Shown piece after piece: positions 66-32,320 of a stretch of 48,022 nt of DNA. Source of the stretch: an uncultured Mycoplasmatota bacterium (GTDB lineage: Bacteria; Bacillota_I; Bacilli_A; RF39; UBA660); contig CAMLWN010000004.1 in NCBI GenBank assembly GCA_946490195.1, positions 1-48,022 of the forward strand, read 5' to 3'. Under the pieces are notes generated by a model. The model had not been told where the DNA came from. It saw only the letters and a program-made list of their open reading frames with translations, and searched no databases. Positions within the stretch are counted from its first letter, which is position 1. The number at the start of each line of letters is the position of its first letter. A program made the translations under genes and the position numbers.

Positions 66-842
66 CTATTTAATTTCAATCGCATCAATAGCTCTTCCAT
101 AAATCCCAGCATAACCCTGATTGGTATCATCTACTTTACTTACCCAAGGAAGCCAAGTTCCATTTTTTAAATGTACACGGTAAGTAGCGTTCTCTATTTG
201 TACTCCATCAATATCATTTCCCAAATTTCCAGCATAATCATTTCGATTTTCTACCCAAGGAAGCCAATAACCTTTTTTCATGTCATGCACACGCATTCGA
301 TATTGATCAGCATAAATGCCTCCAATAGGATTTCCAAAATTTCCAGCATATTCACCTGATGCAACCGCGACATTTGGAAGCCAATATTTTTTCACATTAT
401 CATAAGCTTGATAGAAAATATTTCGGTCATCATTTGGCAAATCAGCATCTAAATAAGGCTCTGGATCAATACGAACATCATAAGTATTTCGAACTTCAAA
501 ATGAAGATGTACCCCGTACGCATTTCCAGTATCTCCCATATATCCAATTTGCTGTCCTTCTTGAACCATATCTCCTTTTTTTACATAAACATCCTTTAAA
601 TGAGCATATAAAGTATAATACCCATCTCCATGTTTTAGTTTAACAAAATTTCCATAACTTGCATTTCCAGTAGAACCAGGATTGTTTTTTTGTCCAGTTT
701 GAACCATAATAACTGTTCCAGCACTATGAGCGATTATAGCATCTTGTTGATACCATTTTTTAACTACATCTACTGCTTCATGAACATTTTTACGATAACC
801 ATTCGTAATCTGATTCTCACCTTCATATAATATTCGACTCAT
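66..842 (-). CDS. M23-family (LytM) peptidoglycan endopeptidase with C-terminal W-P-W repeats, endolysin-like
   Basis: A 258-residue zinc metallopeptidase that would cut peptide cross-links of peptidoglycan. The M23 core occupies about residues 10-130: H21 and D25 (NVHEAVDV), YAHL in the middle and the HLHFEV metal-ligand motif are all present. Residues about 150-258 hold three imperfect repeats of about 35 residues built on WLPWV...YAG..G..IDG, resembling the wall-binding repeats of clostridial and phage lysins. There is no signal peptide: the catalytic domain starts almost at the N terminus. The start is set by AAAGGAG placed 6 nt before ATG. It is monocistronic, 90 bp from rpoZ. Lack of an export signal suggests lysin use (holin-dependent or released on lysis) or a non-classical route. 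The enzyme class is secure; the phage origin is inference. Confidence 0.85.
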   Translation of the reverse strand: MSRILYEGENQITNGYRKNVHEAVDVVKKWYQQDAIIAHSAGTVIMVQTGQKNNPGSTGNASYGNFVKLKHGDGYYTLYAHLKDVYVKKGDMVQEGQQIGYMGDTGNAYGVHLHFEVRNTYDVRIDPEPYLDADLPNDDRNIFYQAYDNVKKYWLPNVAVASGEYAGNFGNPIGGIYADQYRMRVHDMKKGYWLPWVENRNDYAGNLGNDIDGVQIENATYRVHLKNGTWLPWVSKVDDTNQGYAGIYGRAIDAIEIK

Positions 843-932
843 AAAATACTCCTTTCATGAGTAATTTATGAATTTTACAAATTTTTGCTTGTTTTTTTAT
901 CACAAAAAATTTTTTTTTGCATAAGAAAAGAC

Positions 933-1142
933 TTATTCTTTATCATGCGTGATAACTTTAATAAGTCCATTATCTAATTCTTCTAAAGCTCTACCAATTG
1001 TTCGTTTATTCTTATACTCATTCTCTGCCATTTGAAAATGATGATTTTCTAGCATTTGTTTACTTCTTATAGAAGCCACATGAACAAGTTTATACTTTGA
1101 ATCAACGACTTTTAACAATTTGTCAATAGAAGGGTATAGCAT
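933..1142 (-). CDS. rpoZ: RNA polymerase omega subunit
   Basis: A 69-residue omega subunit, which helps fold and hold beta' in RNA polymerase. The N-terminal block LYPSIDKLL, the DSKYKLVHVASIRSKQM segment and the following KNKRTIGRALEEL match the rpoZ family. I start it at the ATG at 1142 rather than the in-frame GTG nine bases upstream, because AAGGA lies about 9 nt before the ATG but abuts the GTG. It is a single gene here, whereas in Bacillus rpoZ follows gmk. Confidence 0.9.
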   Translation of the reverse strand: MLYPSIDKLLKVVDSKYKLVHVASIRSKQMLENHHFQMAENEYKNKRTIGRALEELDNGLIKVITHDKE

Positions 1143-1228
1143 AGATATCACGTCCTTACACTAATATCATACGATATTCTTATATATTCATACAACAAAT
1201 ATTCACTTTTTTTGACGCGCTTTTTACA

Positions 1229-3088
1229 TTACATGACTAAAGTACGTAAAGCGCGCAAAATTAAAACCATACTCCATGTATCTTGTGTACAATAGGTAAT
1301 CAATGCTTGATAATTTTTATCAAATTCTTCTTTACTCATTCGATTGTAATTCGCATACACAATAATTGCTTCTGTTCCATTTTTCACATCCAAATCTTTA
1401 TAGGATAAAGATGAAAAAACTGGTAATGTCTTTTTAATAGAAAAAGAACCACTTAATCTTTCATCATAAAAATTAAACGTTTCTAAATCCTTCTCTTTAA
1501 ATCCTTTCTCTTGATAAAATTCTTTACGATTATTAATAATCCAAAGTAAATCGATACTTCGGTTATACAAATGCAGTAAATCTTCTTGATATTCTGGAAA
1601 AATAGAAGCAAGTTCCTTAATTCTTCCTTTTTCAAAAGCAACATTCTGGGCAAACAAAGTTCCTTTATGAACATCAACATGTTCAAGTAAGCATTTAATG
1701 AGTTCTTCCCTTTCATCATTCATTGTCTTAGCTAAAAAAACAACATGATCCTTTTCTATATCACATACACCAGGTTTCGTTTCAATATGCAAACTAAATT
1801 CAAATGGACTTTGTGTATATGGGTGTTCTCCTCTAAATCTTGGAAGTGGACAAGGAAAAGTTTCAAAATCCAAATGATAAATCGGATATTCTAAAGAATC
1901 TAAGGCAGCTTTAATTTTCTCTTTATTTACATACTGTGTATGATTTTGATAACACTCTCTTTGAATTTTATGATTCTCTTTAGTAATCCATTTTTCATCA
2001 ATATCTAACATATCATAATACCCAGCATTAATAAGCTCTAGTCCTTTAAGTCGTTTGCCATCTTCAAAAACAAAGCCAAATCCATTATTTACATAATTCA
2101 AAACACTATTGGTAACAGGAATATCTTTACCACATACTGTTTTGAAAAATTTACATCCATTGACCTTTTTATATCCGCATGCACTACCAAGAGGACACAC
2201 GATATCCTGAGGGTTTTGTAACCTATCAATAAGCTCATCTAAAGAATTTTGAATATCCTTCTGTAATTCTTGAGTAAGTTGGTCTGCATGAAAAAAAGTA
2301 ATAAGTTCCTCACCTTTTTCATCCTTCTCATACAAAGGTTTACCATCAACATACTTTCCAGAAAAAGTATAAGCATCATTTAATACGCCTAGGTAATAAT
2401 GAACAGAAATTTCCTTCTTTTGTTCTTTAAAAGCATTTTCAATAACAAATCTTTGAAAAGCTAAATCCCAAAAATATTGTCCAAGACCAAATCGATCTTT
2501 TAATTTAGCTTTTTCACGTTCATAATTTTTTAAAGGCATTTCACTTTCTATATCCATACCGAGTTCATCTTTAAGAAAATATATATTTCCTCTTTTTTTA
2601 AAAATCGAATGTTTCCATTTTTTAGGATATCCAGAACTTAATTCCAAGTATTTTTTAGAAGTTGTAGCCTTTATTTCAATAATATTAATTTCTTTTTTAT
2701 TTTCATTATAAATATCAACATAACAAAGAAGAGGTACACCATGATAAAGAAAAGAAAAAGATTTTTGATTCATAGTATCCTCACTATACAATGTTGTCCC
2801 TTCAAAAAGCTTGCAAACAAGTCTTCCAGCTTCTAACTCTACATCTTTATAATACTCTAACATGGCTTCTAATTTTTTATCTACTTCAAAAGTTTTATCA
2901 ATCAAATTTCCTTCATCATCTACTTCAATCATCGCATCCATTAATTCTTTTAACTTAGACCTTTTTTCTTCTTCAAAATATTCTTTTGCTGAGCAAACTT
3001 CTTCTAAAGCATTTTCTTTTACTTTTTCTAAAAAAATATACCGAGGACATCTGGTATATTCTAAAAATTTAGTTTTGGTAAGTGCCAT
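1229..3088 (-). CDS. DUF2779 protein: PD-(D/E)XK-like nuclease plus DEDD-like exonuclease domain
   Basis: A 619-residue member of the DUF2779 family. The N-terminal part looks like a Cas4/RecB-type PD-(D/E)XK nuclease: C14 (RCPRY), an IIEIKA motif near residue 135, and a cysteine cluster near residues 297-318 (CPLGSACGY...GCKFF..VC) that could hold an iron-sulfur cluster. The C-terminal half carries HLDFETFP near residue 400 and a late YCTQDTWSMV, typical of DEDD 3'-5' exonuclease folds. The ATG overlaps the stop of the upstream pilin-like gene (TAATG), so the two are translationally coupled. Function is unknown; a DNA repair or processing role is inferred from the nuclease motifs. No CRISPR array or cas gene is nearby. 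Confidence 0.75.
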   Translation of the reverse strand: MALTKTKFLEYTRCPRYIFLEKVKENALEEVCSAKEYFEEEKRSKLKELMDAMIEVDDEGNLIDKTFEVDKKLEAMLEYYKDVELEAGRLVCKLFEGTTLYSEDTMNQKSFSFLYHGVPLLCYVDIYNENKKEINIIEIKATTSKKYLELSSGYPKKWKHSIFKKRGNIYFLKDELGMDIESEMPLKNYEREKAKLKDRFGLGQYFWDLAFQRFVIENAFKEQKKEISVHYYLGVLNDAYTFSGKYVDGKPLYEKDEKGEELITFFHADQLTQELQKDIQNSLDELIDRLQNPQDIVCPLGSACGYKKVNGCKFFKTVCGKDIPVTNSVLNYVNNGFGFVFEDGKRLKGLELINAGYYDMLDIDEKWITKENHKIQRECYQNHTQYVNKEKIKAALDSLEYPIYHLDFETFPCPLPRFRGEHPYTQSPFEFSLHIETKPGVCDIEKDHVVFLAKTMNDEREELIKCLLEHVDVHKGTLFAQNVAFEKGRIKELASIFPEYQEDLLHLYNRSIDLLWIINNRKEFYQEKGFKEKDLETFNFYDERLSGSFSIKKTLPVFSSLSYKDLDVKNGTEAIIVYANYNRMSKEEFDKNYQALITYCTQDTWSMVLILRALRTLVM

Positions 3089-3429
3089 TATTCTACAATC
3101 TCCACAGTATATTCATCAGAGCCTTCTGGATGCGTTACTTTAAAACGAACAGTATTATATCCAAGTTCTTCTACATCAACCAAAAAATGATTTTCTACTA
3201 AATCGCTTCCAAAAAAGTAAGTCTCAGCTTCTTGAAATTTATCTTTATGTAAAGAAACATAAGCCTCTGCTGCTGTTTGTAAACTATTATTTCTCATCTG
3301 AGCAAGTTCTTCTTCGTTATCAACTTGCTGATAAGCAAAACTTACTCTCGTAATAGCAAAAGTAAAAACAATTCCTAAAATAGCAAATAAAATAATCAAT
3401 TCTTTAACTGCATAACCTTTTTGATTCAT
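3088..3429 (-). CDS. type IV pilin-like (pseudopilin) membrane protein
   Basis: 113 residues. The N terminus KGYAVKE followed by a 20-residue hydrophobic helix is a class III prepilin signal: cleavage after G5 would leave Y+1 and the conserved E+5 (E10). The remainder is a small, acidic, soluble domain I cannot assign. A promoter with extended -10 TGGTATACT lies at 3460-3467, about 35 bp upstream of the start. Its stop codon shares a base with the DUF2779 start. Pseudopilins normally act with a prepilin peptidase and assembly ATPase, neither of which is in this window. Confidence 0.65.
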   Translation of the reverse strand: MNQKGYAVKELIILFAILGIVFTFAITRVSFAYQQVDNEEELAQMRNNSLQTAAEAYVSLHKDKFQEAETYFFGSDLVENHFLVDVEELGYNTVRFKVTHPEGSDEYTVEIVE

Positions 3430-3476
3430 CTGACTACACCTATCCTTAAATCTATAAAAAGTATACCATAAATAAA

Positions 3477-3511
3477 GAAAAAAAAGAAGACTTTACCGTA
3501 AAGAAATCTTC
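3477..3511 (-). terminator. rho-independent terminator of the 172-residue orphan gene
   Basis: The hairpin has arms GAAGA/TCTTC and CTTTA/TAAAG and is followed in the minus direction by eight Ts. It overlaps the last codons of the gene at 3493. Confidence 0.7.
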
Positions 3512-4011
3512 TCACTTTTAAGAGGACGAAATGAAGAAGATGCTTGCAAAATACGACTGATATTTTCTGGCATAGATAAAGCATCTTTATAAATAGCATA
3601 ACTGTTTACTTTTCGAAATTTTTTCAAATCTAAAAGAGTAACTTTCTTATGATATAAGCGGATTCTTCTTAATAGCAAAAAATATTTTTCAATCAGCTTT
3701 ATATCTTCTTTAGTTAAATAATTTGAAAACCCACATAATGCCAAATAATCATCTATACTACATGCTCGATTCACTATAAAAGAAGTCGTAAAACAAGCTT
3801 CATCATTACTAAAATTCAAAATAGGATATAAAGATACATGAGAATTTAATAAATCAACACCCAATAAATTTTGACTCGGTTGAAACAAAATATTCCGAGT
3901 TTCCCCAACAAAAGGTAAATTTATCAAACCATTTGAATTTCGAACCAAATAAGAATTTTTATGAACTTGTCCTATATATAAACTATCACGTAAAAACTTT
4001 TTTTCTTTCAT
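3493..4011 (-). CDS. uncharacterised 172-residue protein
   Basis: I do not recognise this protein. It has no signal peptide or membrane segment. The N-terminal half is beta-rich (SLYIGQVHKNSYLVRNSNGLI) and the C-terminal half is basic and helical. AAAGGA lies 9 nt before ATG, supporting the start. It follows the greA terminator by about 20 bp, so it depends on read-through or on a promoter I could not see, and it ends in its own terminator. It may be lineage-specific. Confidence 0.55.
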   Translation of the reverse strand: MKEKKFLRDSLYIGQVHKNSYLVRNSNGLINLPFVGETRNILFQPSQNLLGVDLLNSHVSLYPILNFSNDEACFTTSFIVNRACSIDDYLALCGFSNYLTKEDIKLIEKYFLLLRRIRLYHKKVTLLDLKKFRKVNSYAIYKDALSMPENISRILQASSSFRPLKSEKISLR

Positions 4012-4028
4012 TCAACCAATTCCTTTCC

Positions 4029-4055
4029 AAAAAAAATAACGCGAATGGCGCGTTA
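4029..4055 (-). terminator. terminator of the ireB-greA operon
   Basis: A perfect 7-bp stem TAACGCG/CGCGTTA with loop CCATT is followed by eight Ts in the minus direction. The greA stop codon is part of the stem. Confidence 0.85.
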
Positions 4056-4514
4056 CTTTACATCTTTTAATAAAATGGTATAAAAGCCATTTGGACTTGA
4101 TACTTCTAACTCTTCACCTTTTTTATGACCAATGACTGCTTTACCAATTGGACTTTCATTTGAAATTTTATTTTCTAATGGATCAGCTTCCATTGAACCA
4201 ACGATCTTAAATTCTTCAACATCGTCATCATCATATTCAATAACAACAGTAGAACCTATAGAAGCTACACCTTCACCTTGAGATTCAGCAATTCTACTAT
4301 GCTCTAATTTATACTCCAATTCCTTTATTCTTGCTTCTACTTGAGCTTGCTCATCTCGAGCAGAATCGTAATCAGCATTTTCAGATAAATCTCCTTGTGC
4401 ACGAGCATCTTTTAAATCTTTTATCACACGTGGTCGAACCACTGTCTTAAGCTCATTAAGTTCAGTTTCTAATTCTAAATATCCTTCAGGAGTTAAAATT
4501 ATTTCATCTTTCAT
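4053..4514 (-). CDS. greA: transcription elongation factor GreA
   Basis: 153 residues from the preferred start. GreA binds the RNA polymerase secondary channel and stimulates cleavage of backtracked transcripts. The N-terminal coiled coil (about residues 1-75) ends in the conserved tip region DLSENADYDSARDEQ with the acidic residues that act at the active site. The C-terminal FKBP-like part holds the family motifs SIGSTVV, NKISNESPIGKAVIGHKKG and GFYTILL. I choose the ATG at 4514 over the GTG at 4523 because AAAGGA lies about 11 nt before the ATG and only about 2 nt before the GTG. It is the last gene of the operon, as in Bacillus, where greA follows yrrO (with udk between them). Confidence 0.95.
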   Translation of the reverse strand: MKDEIILTPEGYLELETELNELKTVVRPRVIKDLKDARAQGDLSENADYDSARDEQAQVEARIKELEYKLEHSRIAESQGEGVASIGSTVVIEYDDDDVEEFKIVGSMEADPLENKISNESPIGKAVIGHKKGEELEVSSPNGFYTILLKDVK

Positions 4515-4552: not shown

Positions 4553-5743
4553 CTATAAATCCCTATCTTTGTCAAATAATTTTACACGCATAATGTCAAA
4601 TTTTTCTAAAGGGACTTCCATTGGTAAATAAACAATCATATTTGGATGATTCGCTACTTCAATACTTTCACCCAAATCATTTTCTATTTTATGAACTTCA
4701 TAAGAAAAAGTTTCCATATTCGGTCCAAAAAATTCTACAACATCTCCAACTTTAAAATAATTTCGCTGTTCAAGTTTCACTTTTTTCTCATCCGGATTAT
4801 AATCCAAAACAAGCCCTAAAAAATCTTGATTAGATACTTCTTCTCTTCCTAAAAAATATTGTTCTTGTTCAGTTGGAAATTTATGAAAAAATTGAGGAGT
4901 ACTTTCTCTATTTGCTACTCGATTTAAAACTTTCAAATAATAATTTTTTTCTTCACTGGTTAAAGAATTTTGAAGAATTTTATCAATAATCTTTCGATAA
5001 GTTAAAATAACTGTTGCAATATAATAGATGCCGCGCATTCTTCCTTCAACTTTAAAAGAATTGACTCCAATATGCATCATTTCTTCAATAAATTCAATCA
5101 TATTTAAATCCTTACTTGTCATACTAAAAGAAGGACTATCATCTGTATCAAAAGTAAACCGGCATACCTGAGCACATCCCCCACGATTCGCATCTCGATT
5201 CGTGACTACATTAGATAAAACACAACGACCTGAAAAAGAAGTACACATAGCACCATGAACGAAGCACTCTAAATCTAATCCTGTTTTTTCTTTAATTTTT
5301 TTTATATCATTCGCACTCGCTTCTCTAGCAAGAACAATTCTTTTTACTCCTCTTTTTTTATAAAATAAAGCAGCACTCTCATTCAACACACTTGCTTGAG
5401 TAGACAAGTGAACTTCTAAAGATAAATGAAATTCAGTAGCTAACTGAACTACATATAAATCACTAACAATAATGGCATCTACACCAATTTTGTCTAATTC
5501 TTTTAAATATTTTTCTAACCCCAAAACATCTTCTTCATGAAAAATAATATTCACAGTTACATAAACTTTTTTTCCTAAAGAATGAGCATAATTCACACCT
5601 TCGCGTAAATCTTCTAAAGAAAAATTTTTAGCATTAGCTCGAAGACTATAATTTTGACCTCCAACATAAACAGCATCTGCTCCATAAAGTAAAGCAAATT
5701 TTAATTTTTCTAAATCTCCTGCTGGAGCAAGTAATTCAATCAT
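4553..5743 (-). CDS. U32 family protein, tRNA 5-hydroxyuridine synthesis (TrhP2/YrrO type)
   Basis: 396 residues. U32 TrhP proteins are needed to make 5-hydroxyuridine at wobble U34, using prephenate and probably an iron-sulfur centre. The family hallmarks are present: LLAPAGDLEKLKFALLYGADAVYVGG at the N terminus and the signature ECFVHGAMC..FSGRCVLS with downstream C residues (GGCAQVCRF) around residues 160-195. A C-terminal beta-barrel region (about 310-396) follows. The start is decided by GGAGG 7 nt upstream; its ATG overlaps the stop of the preceding gene as TAATG. It lies between a second U32 gene and greA, the same order as yrrN-yrrO in Bacillus. Confidence 0.88.
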   Translation of the reverse strand: MIELLAPAGDLEKLKFALLYGADAVYVGGQNYSLRANAKNFSLEDLREGVNYAHSLGKKVYVTVNIIFHEEDVLGLEKYLKELDKIGVDAIIVSDLYVVQLATEFHLSLEVHLSTQASVLNESAALFYKKRGVKRIVLAREASANDIKKIKEKTGLDLECFVHGAMCTSFSGRCVLSNVVTNRDANRGGCAQVCRFTFDTDDSPSFSMTSKDLNMIEFIEEMMHIGVNSFKVEGRMRGIYYIATVILTYRKIIDKILQNSLTSEEKNYYLKVLNRVANRESTPQFFHKFPTEQEQYFLGREEVSNQDFLGLVLDYNPDEKKVKLEQRNYFKVGDVVEFFGPNMETFSYEVHKIENDLGESIEVANHPNMIVYLPMEVPLEKFDIMRVKLFDKDRDL

Positions 5744-6534
5744 TAGACACCTCCTTTAGGCGGTAACCGATAAATAGTTTTTCGATATAAAAAACCATCT
5801 GTTGTATTAGGATAATCCTTTCCTTTCAAAAAATCTTCCATAAAAGCTTTAATCGAAGAAACATTTTCTAAATGAAGGTCAATAAGAAAATAAGAAACAT
5901 CTTTTTCTAACAATTCTCTACCATCAAAAACACATGTATCATAAAACATGGTTCCAAACTCATCTTCCACAACTAAAAACTCTTTTTTACTTACCTTTTC
6001 TTTTATAATCCTTTGCTTTTTATCTTCTAAAGAAAAATGCTTACGATAATTTGTAAGTAAAGTTCTTCTTGAATACATGTAAGGCAAATGTCCAAAAATG
6101 TTTAATCCAACCTTTTTTGTAACATGTTCTAAAATTTCATCAATTTCTTCTTTAGTAATATCATTAGAAAGAATAACCGTATCTACATCACGAAGCAAAC
6201 TATTTGCTGTATAAGAACTACAGACTCCATGAGTTCCATAAAAAATAGTTTCTACTGCAATAGAATTTTCTTTTAAAACATTTAAAATTCCTAAATCTTC
6301 AAAAACAATTCCTCTGACTTTTTTAGAAAAAAGAGGAAGAAGTTTAGTAAATTCCTCAATTCCTTTTGAATCAAGCAATCGATTGACATAAACATAAGAA
6401 TAATCTGGAATACTTTCTAAAGAAAATGTTCGTTCCATTCCAACACAAAAACCTTGTAAAGGAAAAAGAAAGTCACAATCTGAAACTTTCTCTAAAGCAA
6501 ACTTACCTGGAATAATCAAAAATTTATTTTTCAT
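5743..6534 (-). CDS. divergent U32-like protein at the TrhP1/YrrN position
   Basis: 263 residues from the chosen ATG. By position between trmR and the second U32 gene it corresponds to Bacillus yrrN (trhP1). It is very divergent: it keeps a barrel-like pattern and a U32-like segment GLNIFGHLPYMYSRRTLLTN but lacks the cysteine-rich signature of its neighbour. It therefore may act as a non-catalytic partner. It overlaps the end of trmR by 11 bases and has no clear SD, implying translational coupling; an in-frame GTG at 6546 is a possible alternative start. Assignment rests mostly on synteny. Confidence 0.6.
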   Translation of the reverse strand: MKNKFLIIPGKFALEKVSDCDFLFPLQGFCVGMERTFSLESIPDYSYVYVNRLLDSKGIEEFTKLLPLFSKKVRGIVFEDLGILNVLKENSIAVETIFYGTHGVCSSYTANSLLRDVDTVILSNDITKEEIDEILEHVTKKVGLNIFGHLPYMYSRRTLLTNYRKHFSLEDKKQRIIKEKVSKKEFLVVEDEFGTMFYDTCVFDGRELLEKDVSYFLIDLHLENVSSIKAFMEDFLKGKDYPNTTDGFLYRKTIYRLPPKGGV

Positions 6535-23562: not shown

Positions 23563-23903
23563 AATAACTAATAAGCCTTGTTCTGTCCGTAAAATATACG
23601 GGGCAAATATTTATCTACCATTGCTGGTCCACTGCATCGTTCATTTACTAGCAGTAGCTCCCCTACCATAATTTGGGTTTCTCGCTTGCGGGGTTTACCA
23701 CGTTCCACTTCCAAGGTTTCCCTTTTCTTCGTCACTTTGGCACTTTTATACCTACTAAAACCAGTTAAGGTTCGTTTGGAGCCTTTAGTTAAAAACTACC
23801 TTAGGTTATTTTTTCCCTAAGCACAATCACTACAACCATCTCAGGCTGTGCGAGCAAGGACTTTCCTCAACATAACAAGTATGCCGCATTTGCCTTAGTT
23901 ATT
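23563..23903 (-). ncRNA. rnpB: RNase P RNA, class B
   Basis: About 340 nt. The RNA subunit of RNase P cleaves tRNA 5' leaders. Seen on the minus strand: GAGGAAAGTCC near the 5' end, AAACCCCGCAAGCGAGAAACC in pieces, GTAGGGGAGC, and the 3' segment GACAGAACAAGGCTTAT, all conserved core elements. The terminal P1 helix can be drawn: AATAACTAA (5', 23895-23903) with TTAGTTATT (3', 23563-23571). The 5' strand of P1 overlaps the last bases and stop of gpsB. gpsB-rnpB order is that of Bacillus. Confidence 0.95.
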
Positions 23904-30584: not shown

Positions 30585-32246
30585 ATGAAATTAGAAAAAT
30601 TTAAACCAAAAGACCCAAAGAAAACTGGAATAATTATATTTACTGTAGTATGTGTTTTATTAGTAGCAGGAGTATTTTTCTATACTTCATTTGCATCATT
30701 TCAAGTACAACAAGATTTTAATATCATTGAAGGAACTGTAGGAAGTAATGGAGACTTATATTTTGCATTTTATGTAGATAATGAAATAAGTAGTAAAATG
30801 CCAGGTAAAGGCGAAGGATATGTACTCGATAAGGAAAAAACAAATTGTACCAAAGGAGCAAGTGTCGAATTTAATGAAACAGATTGGTCAGTTAAAGTCT
30901 TAAATATGACAGAAAGAAATACAAAATGTACTTTATACTTTAAAAAAAGTTATAGTGAGACCATCTTAAATGGAGCAGACCCAGTGTTAAAAGAACCATT
31001 AATACCTGTGACAATTGAAAATGACGGGACAGTCAAAAGAGCTGACTTATCATTAGAATGGTACAACTATGAAAACAAAGAATGGGCGAATGCAGTAATA
31101 CTTTTTGATGAAAGTACAAATTCTAGTTATCAAGCTGGAGATACAATTCCAGAAAGTGCTATAGAATCTTACTTTGTCTGGATACCAAGATATCGATATC
31201 AAATCTTTGACGATGGGAACTATACAGATTTAACAAGTACAGAAAATTCTACTCAAACTATCCAAATTGCTTTTGAGAATAAGGATACACCAGTAAGTAA
31301 TGGAAGTGCTGTTGGAAGTTGGTTAACCCACCCTGCTTTCACTGCTTTCAATTCTAATGGTATGTGGGTAGGCAAATTTGAAACAGGAACAACTTTAACA
31401 AGCGATTATAATGTACGAAATGGAGATGCTATTCAAATCAAACCAAATGTAGCTTCATGGAGAAGTATCCAAGTAGCTAATGCATTCTACACATCTTATG
31501 ATTACAAACGAAATTTAGATAGTCATATGATGAAAAATACCGAATGGGGTGCTGTAGCTTATCTACAGCATAGTATTTATGGTTCTCAAGCAAGTGTACG
31601 AATTAATAACAACTCATCTTATATTACAGGTTATCAAGCAAATAATGAACCGACATGTGGATATACAGGAACAAACGAAGAATGTAATAGATATTGTAAT
31701 GATGGAACCTGTAATACAGCTTATCCAAATAGTGTACTAGCAAGTACCACAGGAAATATCACAGGAATTTATGATATGTCCGGTGGCGCTTGGGAATATG
31801 TGATGGGAGTCATGGTAGATGAGGAAGGTAATCCAATGAGTGGAAGAAATAGCATCTATAATTCTGGTTTTAATGGAACATTTGGATGCCCTACTTGTAA
31901 TAATGACACTTCAGGTTTAACTGAATTAACAAATGGTTACAGCTGGCCAGAAAACAAATATTATAATACATATGCTTATGCTACAGTTGATGAACAATAT
32001 CAAAGAAGAATACTTGGAGATGCAACAGGAGAAATGGGTCCATTTGCCTCAGCAACTTACTTAACTCAAACCAGACAGATAAATAGTTGGTATTCCAACT
32101 TATCTAGTTTTGTTTTTTCTAGTTTACCATGGTTTATGCGTGGTGCAACTAATACAGATGGTATATACACAAATACGTTTGCTTTTGGTAGTACATATGG
32201 TTCCGTACTTAATAGCATTGGCTTTCGCCTCATTCTAACTCCATAA
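30585..32246 (+). CDS. membrane-anchored surface protein with a C-terminal FGE-sulfatase/C-type-lectin-like fold
   Basis: 553 residues. A short basic N terminus and one helix (IIIFTVVCVLLVAGVFFYTSF, about 16-36) lead to an outside domain with two cysteines in each of several small units. The C-terminal half is of the formylglycine-generating-enzyme/SUMF1 fold: SYFVWIPRYRYQIF, GMWVGKFETG, MKNTEWGAVAYLQHSIYG, IYDMSGGAWEYVMG, and the end WFMRGATNTDGIYTNTFAFGS...GFRLILTP. It is unlikely to make formylglycine; many such proteins are binding proteins and some are targets of diversity-generating retroelements. The last 30 codons have that look (see findings). SD AGGAAT about 9 nt before ATG. Confidence 0.75.
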   Translation: MKLEKFKPKDPKKTGIIIFTVVCVLLVAGVFFYTSFASFQVQQDFNIIEGTVGSNGDLYFAFYVDNEISSKMPGKGEGYVLDKEKTNCTKGASVEFNETDWSVKVLNMTERNTKCTLYFKKSYSETILNGADPVLKEPLIPVTIENDGTVKRADLSLEWYNYENKEWANAVILFDESTNSSYQAGDTIPESAIESYFVWIPRYRYQIFDDGNYTDLTSTENSTQTIQIAFENKDTPVSNGSAVGSWLTHPAFTAFNSNGMWVGKFETGTTLTSDYNVRNGDAIQIKPNVASWRSIQVANAFYTSYDYKRNLDSHMMKNTEWGAVAYLQHSIYGSQASVRINNNSSYITGYQANNEPTCGYTGTNEECNRYCNDGTCNTAYPNSVLASTTGNITGIYDMSGGAWEYVMGVMVDEEGNPMSGRNSIYNSGFNGTFGCPTCNNDTSGLTELTNGYSWPENKYYNTYAYATVDEQYQRRILGDATGEMGPFASATYLTQTRQINSWYSNLSSFVFSSLPWFMRGATNTDGIYTNTFAFGSTYGSVLNSIGFRLILTP

Positions 32247-32320
32247 GTCATTTTTAAAAAAACGATTATGCTTAATTTGGATCGTGCTTTCGCCTCATTC
32301 TAACTCCATAAGTCATTTTT
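32221..32320 (+). repeat. 35-bp direct repeat of the surface gene's 3' end
   Basis: The 35 bases at 32221-32255, covering the last codons GFRLILTP, the stop and 8 bases beyond, occur again without mismatch at 32286-32320. The spacer holds CTTAAT at similar distance and low similarity upstream. It is a partial duplication of the gene's tail. Confidence 0.9.

Follow-up and report, generated by a model that had tools for sequence, protein, structure and literature searches.

A surface protein gene of an uncultured Mycoplasmatota bacterium with a C-terminal cassette that probably descends from a diversified retroelement target

The window (the whole 48,022-nt stretch of DNA analysed here) is contig C4 of a 1.01-Mb genome assembly, G000, that is 80% complete. 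One of its genes ends in a sharply bounded hypervariable cassette, which we read, with a probability of about 0.78, as a variable region (VR) of the type rewritten by diversity-generating retroelements (DGRs), carried by a dispersed member of a large anchored surface protein family and representing a frozen descendant of a diversified target. That the protein descends from a DGR target has good support: the family is homologous to known DGR targets and shares their fold, the same genome encodes a reverse transcriptase (RT) and Avd and carries template units, and a target gene on contig C12 has diverged from a template on contig C21 in an adenine-limited manner.

The hypervariable cassette and its protein

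The gene end proved to be as the earlier note had described it, with a 553-AA open reading frame at 30585-32246 (+) and a C terminus resembling a DGR variable region. Comparison with a paralog encoded on C12 of the same genome showed 89% amino acid identity up to the cassette boundary and 45% inside. By block, identity fell from 88% at residues 488-503 to 44% at residues 504-519, and the three 16-residue blocks after residue 503 gave 44%, 38%, and 44%. The identity drop places the start of the cassette near 32091, directly after the SWY motif and about 8 codons before the 32115 proposed earlier. The location of the variable segment was thus correctly recognized and its start was not, nor was its extent, given as the last 30 codons, since 32115-32246 comprises 43 codons and a stop. 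Coordinates of the features are collected in Table 1.

Divergence from the C12 paralog at codon positions 1, 2, and 3 was 0.07, 0.07, and 0.38 upstream and 0.47, 0.27, and 0.47 in the cassette, i.e., it rose about sevenfold at the first position and fourfold at the second, with little change at the third. The claimed bias for T or C at the third base is real: NNY codons make up 70% of the interval 32115-32246 (p=0.014) and 73% of 32091-32243, compared with 51% in the remaining gene (p=0.0025). The drop in identity, the elevated divergence at first and second codon positions, and the NNY bias indicate that the original observation stands. The cassette aligns with VRs of relatives having matching templates, and the usual AG of the family's xAGxFAF stretch is replaced in it by TN.

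Table 1. Positions of the features (window coordinates unless a locus is named)
Feature	Position	Strand	Basis
Multicopy membrane-anchored surface protein family member, 553 AA, C-terminal FGE/C-type-lectin-like domain	30585..32246	+	ORF, family matches, homology, fold
N-terminal hydrophobic helix, residues 11-36, IIIFTVVCVLLVAGVFFY	30615..30692	+	sequence; low-confidence four-sequence model (pLDDT 36)
Hypervariable cassette homologous to DGR variable regions, residues 503-553	32091..32243	+	identity drop, ortholog comparison, VR alignment
35-nt perfect direct repeat, copy 1: cassette 3′ end, stop codon, and 9 nt beyond	32221..32255	+	sequence
30-nt spacer between repeat copies; without short-loop hairpin; absent from G013 ortholog	32256..32285	+	sequence, ortholog comparison
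35-nt repeat, copy 2, non-coding	32286..32320	+	sequence
Group II intron / RT loci	L032 6195-6237 (G000:C12 27694-27736); L267, L265 (G013:C24, C64); L266 (G013:C84)		

No confident family was found for the protein in Pfam, NCBIfam, or PHROGs. Its N-terminal helix is probably a membrane anchor. A model of residues 189-553, built from an alignment of 34 homologs, reached pLDDT 75 and pTM 0.84; the best PDB match of the C-terminal domain was TaqVP, a DGR variable protein of Thermus aquaticus (5vf4; E=1.4e-6, probability 1.00), followed at weaker E-values by human FGE and Mtd variants. These matches bear out the FGE fold predicted for this region. The family profile matched VR-bearing ORFs adjoining RT genes in dozens of DGR loci of gut Bacilli and Clostridia, with E-values down to 6e-281, so that the window protein is homologous to variable proteins encoded beside DGR RTs. 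With fragments counted, the own genome gave 20 family matches, each of the 24 other same-genus genomes covered by the first search gave 2 to 48, and 15 genomes from other genera gave none. Named relatives come from rabbit-gut and other MAGs, many of them labelled uncultured Bacilli.

In its FGE/C-type-lectin-like C-terminal fold and in the placement of the variable segment at the very end of that fold, the window protein resembles TaqVP, Mtd of BPP-1, and TvpA of Treponema denticola. It differs from them in its N-terminal anchor, in its sequence (about 16% identity to TaqVP), and in having no matching template. Its variable face presumably binds a putative ligand.

Retroelement machinery in the same genome

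The earlier note had seen no reverse transcriptase or template repeat in the window. An Rfam scan of it gave no template-RNA family, the sole match being RNase P, a bacterial class B RNA at 23568-23901 (-). The DGR machinery lies outside the window, elsewhere in the genome: a DGR-type RT, for which a genome search had been proposed, was found together with Avd on C12. The order on this contig is three template-like cassettes, the target gene, a MutS-like ORF, avd, and the RT gene truncated by the contig end. The C12 Avd scored 75 bits against PF22296 (cut-off 40), and that of a same-genus genome, G003, is above the curated cut-offs of both NF033474 and PF22296. The RT family carries the motifs IGNYTSQ and YMDD.

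An additional template unit is located on C21. Between this unit and the C12 target VR, 9 of 36 template adenines and 2 of the 111 remaining bases are changed (p=5e-5), and this adenine-limited change identifies the family as a DGR target family. Template/VR pairs of other genomes showed the same pattern, with differences at 17/30 adenines vs. 6/109 other bases in G003 (p=2e-9) and 20/36 vs. 3/102 in G009 (p=1e-11). An adenine-limited pair, an RT with the (I/V/L)GxxxSQ motif, and Avd are thus found at the C12 and G003 loci. The template units of the own genome have common conserved 3′ flanks including a hairpin, the paired arms of which covary between units and genomes.

Relative to G013 (another species) and G043, a G-run of the MutS-like ORF on C12 is longer by two G, and an A-run of the RT gene is one base short; these frameshifts may be either real damage or assembly error. 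The RT gene also appears to be interrupted by an intron at YMDD. In G013 as in the own genome, YMD of the RT is followed by a GTGCG start. The 3′ part of the G013 RT lies on another contig, after a group II intron domain V, and joining the exons at the intron ends gives YMDD. In two species a group II intron splits the DGR RT at YMD|D; a further copy of the intron occupies a comparable site in a different RT. At L117 2484-2630 (G013:C24), a hybrid of a template 5′ flank and a VR 3′ end, with a hairpin, is found where the target gene would sit, as if recombination between template and VR had deleted that gene. A separate 279-AA RT (RVT_1) at L033 1168-2007 (G000:C20) is retron- or defence-like by appearance; it adjoins no family member or template unit found and was set aside as DGR machinery.

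The window gene as a present or former target

Like an active target, the window gene has a C-terminal variable segment in a C-type-lectin/FGE fold. Comparison of this VR with all templates collected revealed no adenine bias; between it and the best template, 14/34 adenines and 34/110 non-adenines differ (p=0.18), compared with 2-6% non-adenine differences for the most recently rewritten VRs. No closer template was detected in a DNA search of 37 same-genus genomes (the own and 36 others), in which the best match, at 70%, was to a VR within a G043 gene. A near-copy of the segment differing at template adenines, which the earlier note had proposed to look for, was therefore not obtained.

This result, together with the divergence of third codon positions (0.47) and the existence of a large paralog family able to recombine, would be compatible with ordinary diversifying selection or gene conversion between paralogs, with no DGR involved. 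We regard such an origin as very improbable, as rewriting at template adenines is demonstrable for homologous positions in this family, the own genome contains DGR machinery, and a DGR variable protein heads the list of fold matches.

The signals at the gene end also differ from those of rewritten copies. The 3′ end of the window VR (IMH), GGCTTTCGCCTCATTCTA, does not match that of the own-genome templates, AGTTTCCGCGTTGTTTTG. No stem-loop follows the stop codon; the best candidate was a 4-bp TTTT/AAAA pairing (shuffle p=0.70). DGR-adjacent VRs have a compact hairpin at or just after the stop, ACGCC(GTGA)GGCGT in C12 (shuffle p=0.008) and G043 and one of the AGGGG(TTTA)CCCCT type in G003 and G009. 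A stem-loop after the VR is not strictly needed in BPP-1 (PMC12875486). Many dispersed VRs have no short hairpin, among them L158 of G003, which differs from an array template at 14/30 adenines and 7/109 other bases (p=1.2e-6). As this copy looks recently rewritten, the absence of a hairpin is no proof of inactivity.

The gene end is followed by a second copy of its last nucleotides (32221-32320), a repeat that the earlier note had not mentioned. The second copy starts 65 bp downstream of the first, and the duplication is absent in the G013 ortholog; copy 2 is possibly a remnant of a duplicated VR end. The repeat was also considered as a deleted template; its similarity to templates is short. 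The syntenic ortholog in G013, L176 (G013:C41 6311-7811), lies upstream of rpsD and is broken by internal deletions. About half of its VR matches that of the window gene, compared with near identity for the adjacent rpsD.

Could the window gene nevertheless be a live target served in trans, its template with a matching 3′ end (GGCTTTCGCCTCATTCTAAC) residing in the unassembled fifth of the genome? With the own assembly 80% complete and contigs of several genomes breaking at template units, the template may indeed be missing from the data, and its absence from this assembly is weak evidence for inactivity. The NNY bias is still present in the cassette, and dispersed VRs of G003 (L158 and L167, the latter with p=6.8e-8) show adenine-biased differences to array templates. 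We nonetheless consider a live target unlikely, given that a matching template is absent from the 36 other genomes as well, that the window copy is changed at residues usually fixed in the family, and that the own MutS-like and RT genes are frameshifted relative to relatives, the RT being interrupted at YMDD.

Since the window VR has neither a matching template, a template-like 3′ end, nor a hairpin, carries TN in place of AG, and has a broken ortholog in G013, we read it as a frozen descendant. Of the earlier proposal that the segment is a DGR target or descends from one, the second part holds on the basis of homology, fold, and the Avd, RT, and templates of the genome, and the first finds no support in template, 3′ end, or hairpin. 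The C12 DGR would copy template RNA with errors at adenines and rewrite C termini of this kind, the mutagenised cDNA homing into the 3′ end of the target. The window gene would then have arisen from a diversified target by duplication or dispersal, have lost the homing signals or lacked them from the outset, and retain a frozen variant that drifts through ordinary mutation.

Template arrays and the surface protein repertoire

DGRs are usually described with one template and one or few targets. Among 80 RT loci of public genomes, most of those having detectable repeats had one VR and one template. A long template array was seen, among these loci and the genomes of the genus, only in the window's genus. 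On G003:C5 (L116; CANQZD010000005.1), 11 tandem template repeats with a period of about 367 bp extend over 475-4371, between the target gene end and the MutS-like, avd, and RT genes (RT at 5254-6282). In G043, G022, G019, and G047, contig ends carry partial arrays, and the own genome has additional units.

Compared with the template consensus, the array-adjacent VR of G003 is changed at 20/34 adenines and at 7/105 of the remaining positions. Differences at adenines occur also among the templates: 23% of adenine cells differ inside the template vs. 11% in the flanks (p=1.4e-7), whereas for other bases the values are 8.5% inside and 12.7% outside. With TR1 as reference, about half of its differences to the other templates fall at TR1 adenines, and far fewer do so in the reverse direction. 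The simplest reading of these alignments is that the templates would also receive mutagenised cDNA, or were reseeded from VRs. An assignment of one template to each target was discarded, as most G003 VRs do not single out any one template. Likewise, the by-eye impression from own-genome units of a promoter before every template was dropped after a scan of the G003 array gave 18 vs. 17.9 in shuffles, i.e., no excess.

The Rfam family RT-14 (RF02921), listed merely as sRNA, coincides in G003 with the template-unit spacer and is repeated along the array. In L116 638-4529, seven units matched it in one search, two of them above the gathering score and the others below, and further units did so in a second search, so that most of the 11 templates are followed by a match. 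The match covers about 135 nt located 3′ of the template repeats, a region with a consensus structure in which 8 pairs are changed on both sides in some unit. The coincidence suggests that RT-14 represents the spacer portion of the RNA that serves as DGR template.

The C12 and G003:C5 loci resemble the BPP-1-type cassette: each unites a VR protein, Avd, RT, and a template whose downstream RNA is conserved, and a hairpin follows the VR of DGR-adjacent targets. Unlike in BPP-1, avd-RT of the window's genus is preceded by several to 11 template units in tandem, an extra ORF with MutS domain I lies before avd, and the family has dozens of dispersed members. DGRs with remote variable proteins or with multiple templates have been reported before (cyanobacteria, PMC7517822; the MetaCSST survey, PMC6642488; T. 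denticola, PMC4891356), and two TRs with six VRs are on record (PMC6642488). In the openly licensed papers searched, we found no description of an 11-module tandem template array with adenine-biased template differences.

We tentatively propose, at somewhat less than even odds, that in this genus of gut Bacilli a single DGR reads an array of up to 11 modules, each made up of a template repeat and an RT-14-like RNA, that the same process diversifies these templates at adenines, and that the array supplies and seeds a genome-wide repertoire of dozens of variable surface proteins, the window gene being one of them. If true, this would constitute diversification at two levels, a mutable template library and mutable targets. 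A tandem array with adenine variation at the template level would show how a DGR can build up a standing repertoire instead of just one variable protein, in genomes of about 1 Mb with dozens of target paralogs, and would give the RT-14 family a plausible role. The window gene illustrates a possible fate of the dispersed members, in which the variant is retained and the signals for rewriting are not.
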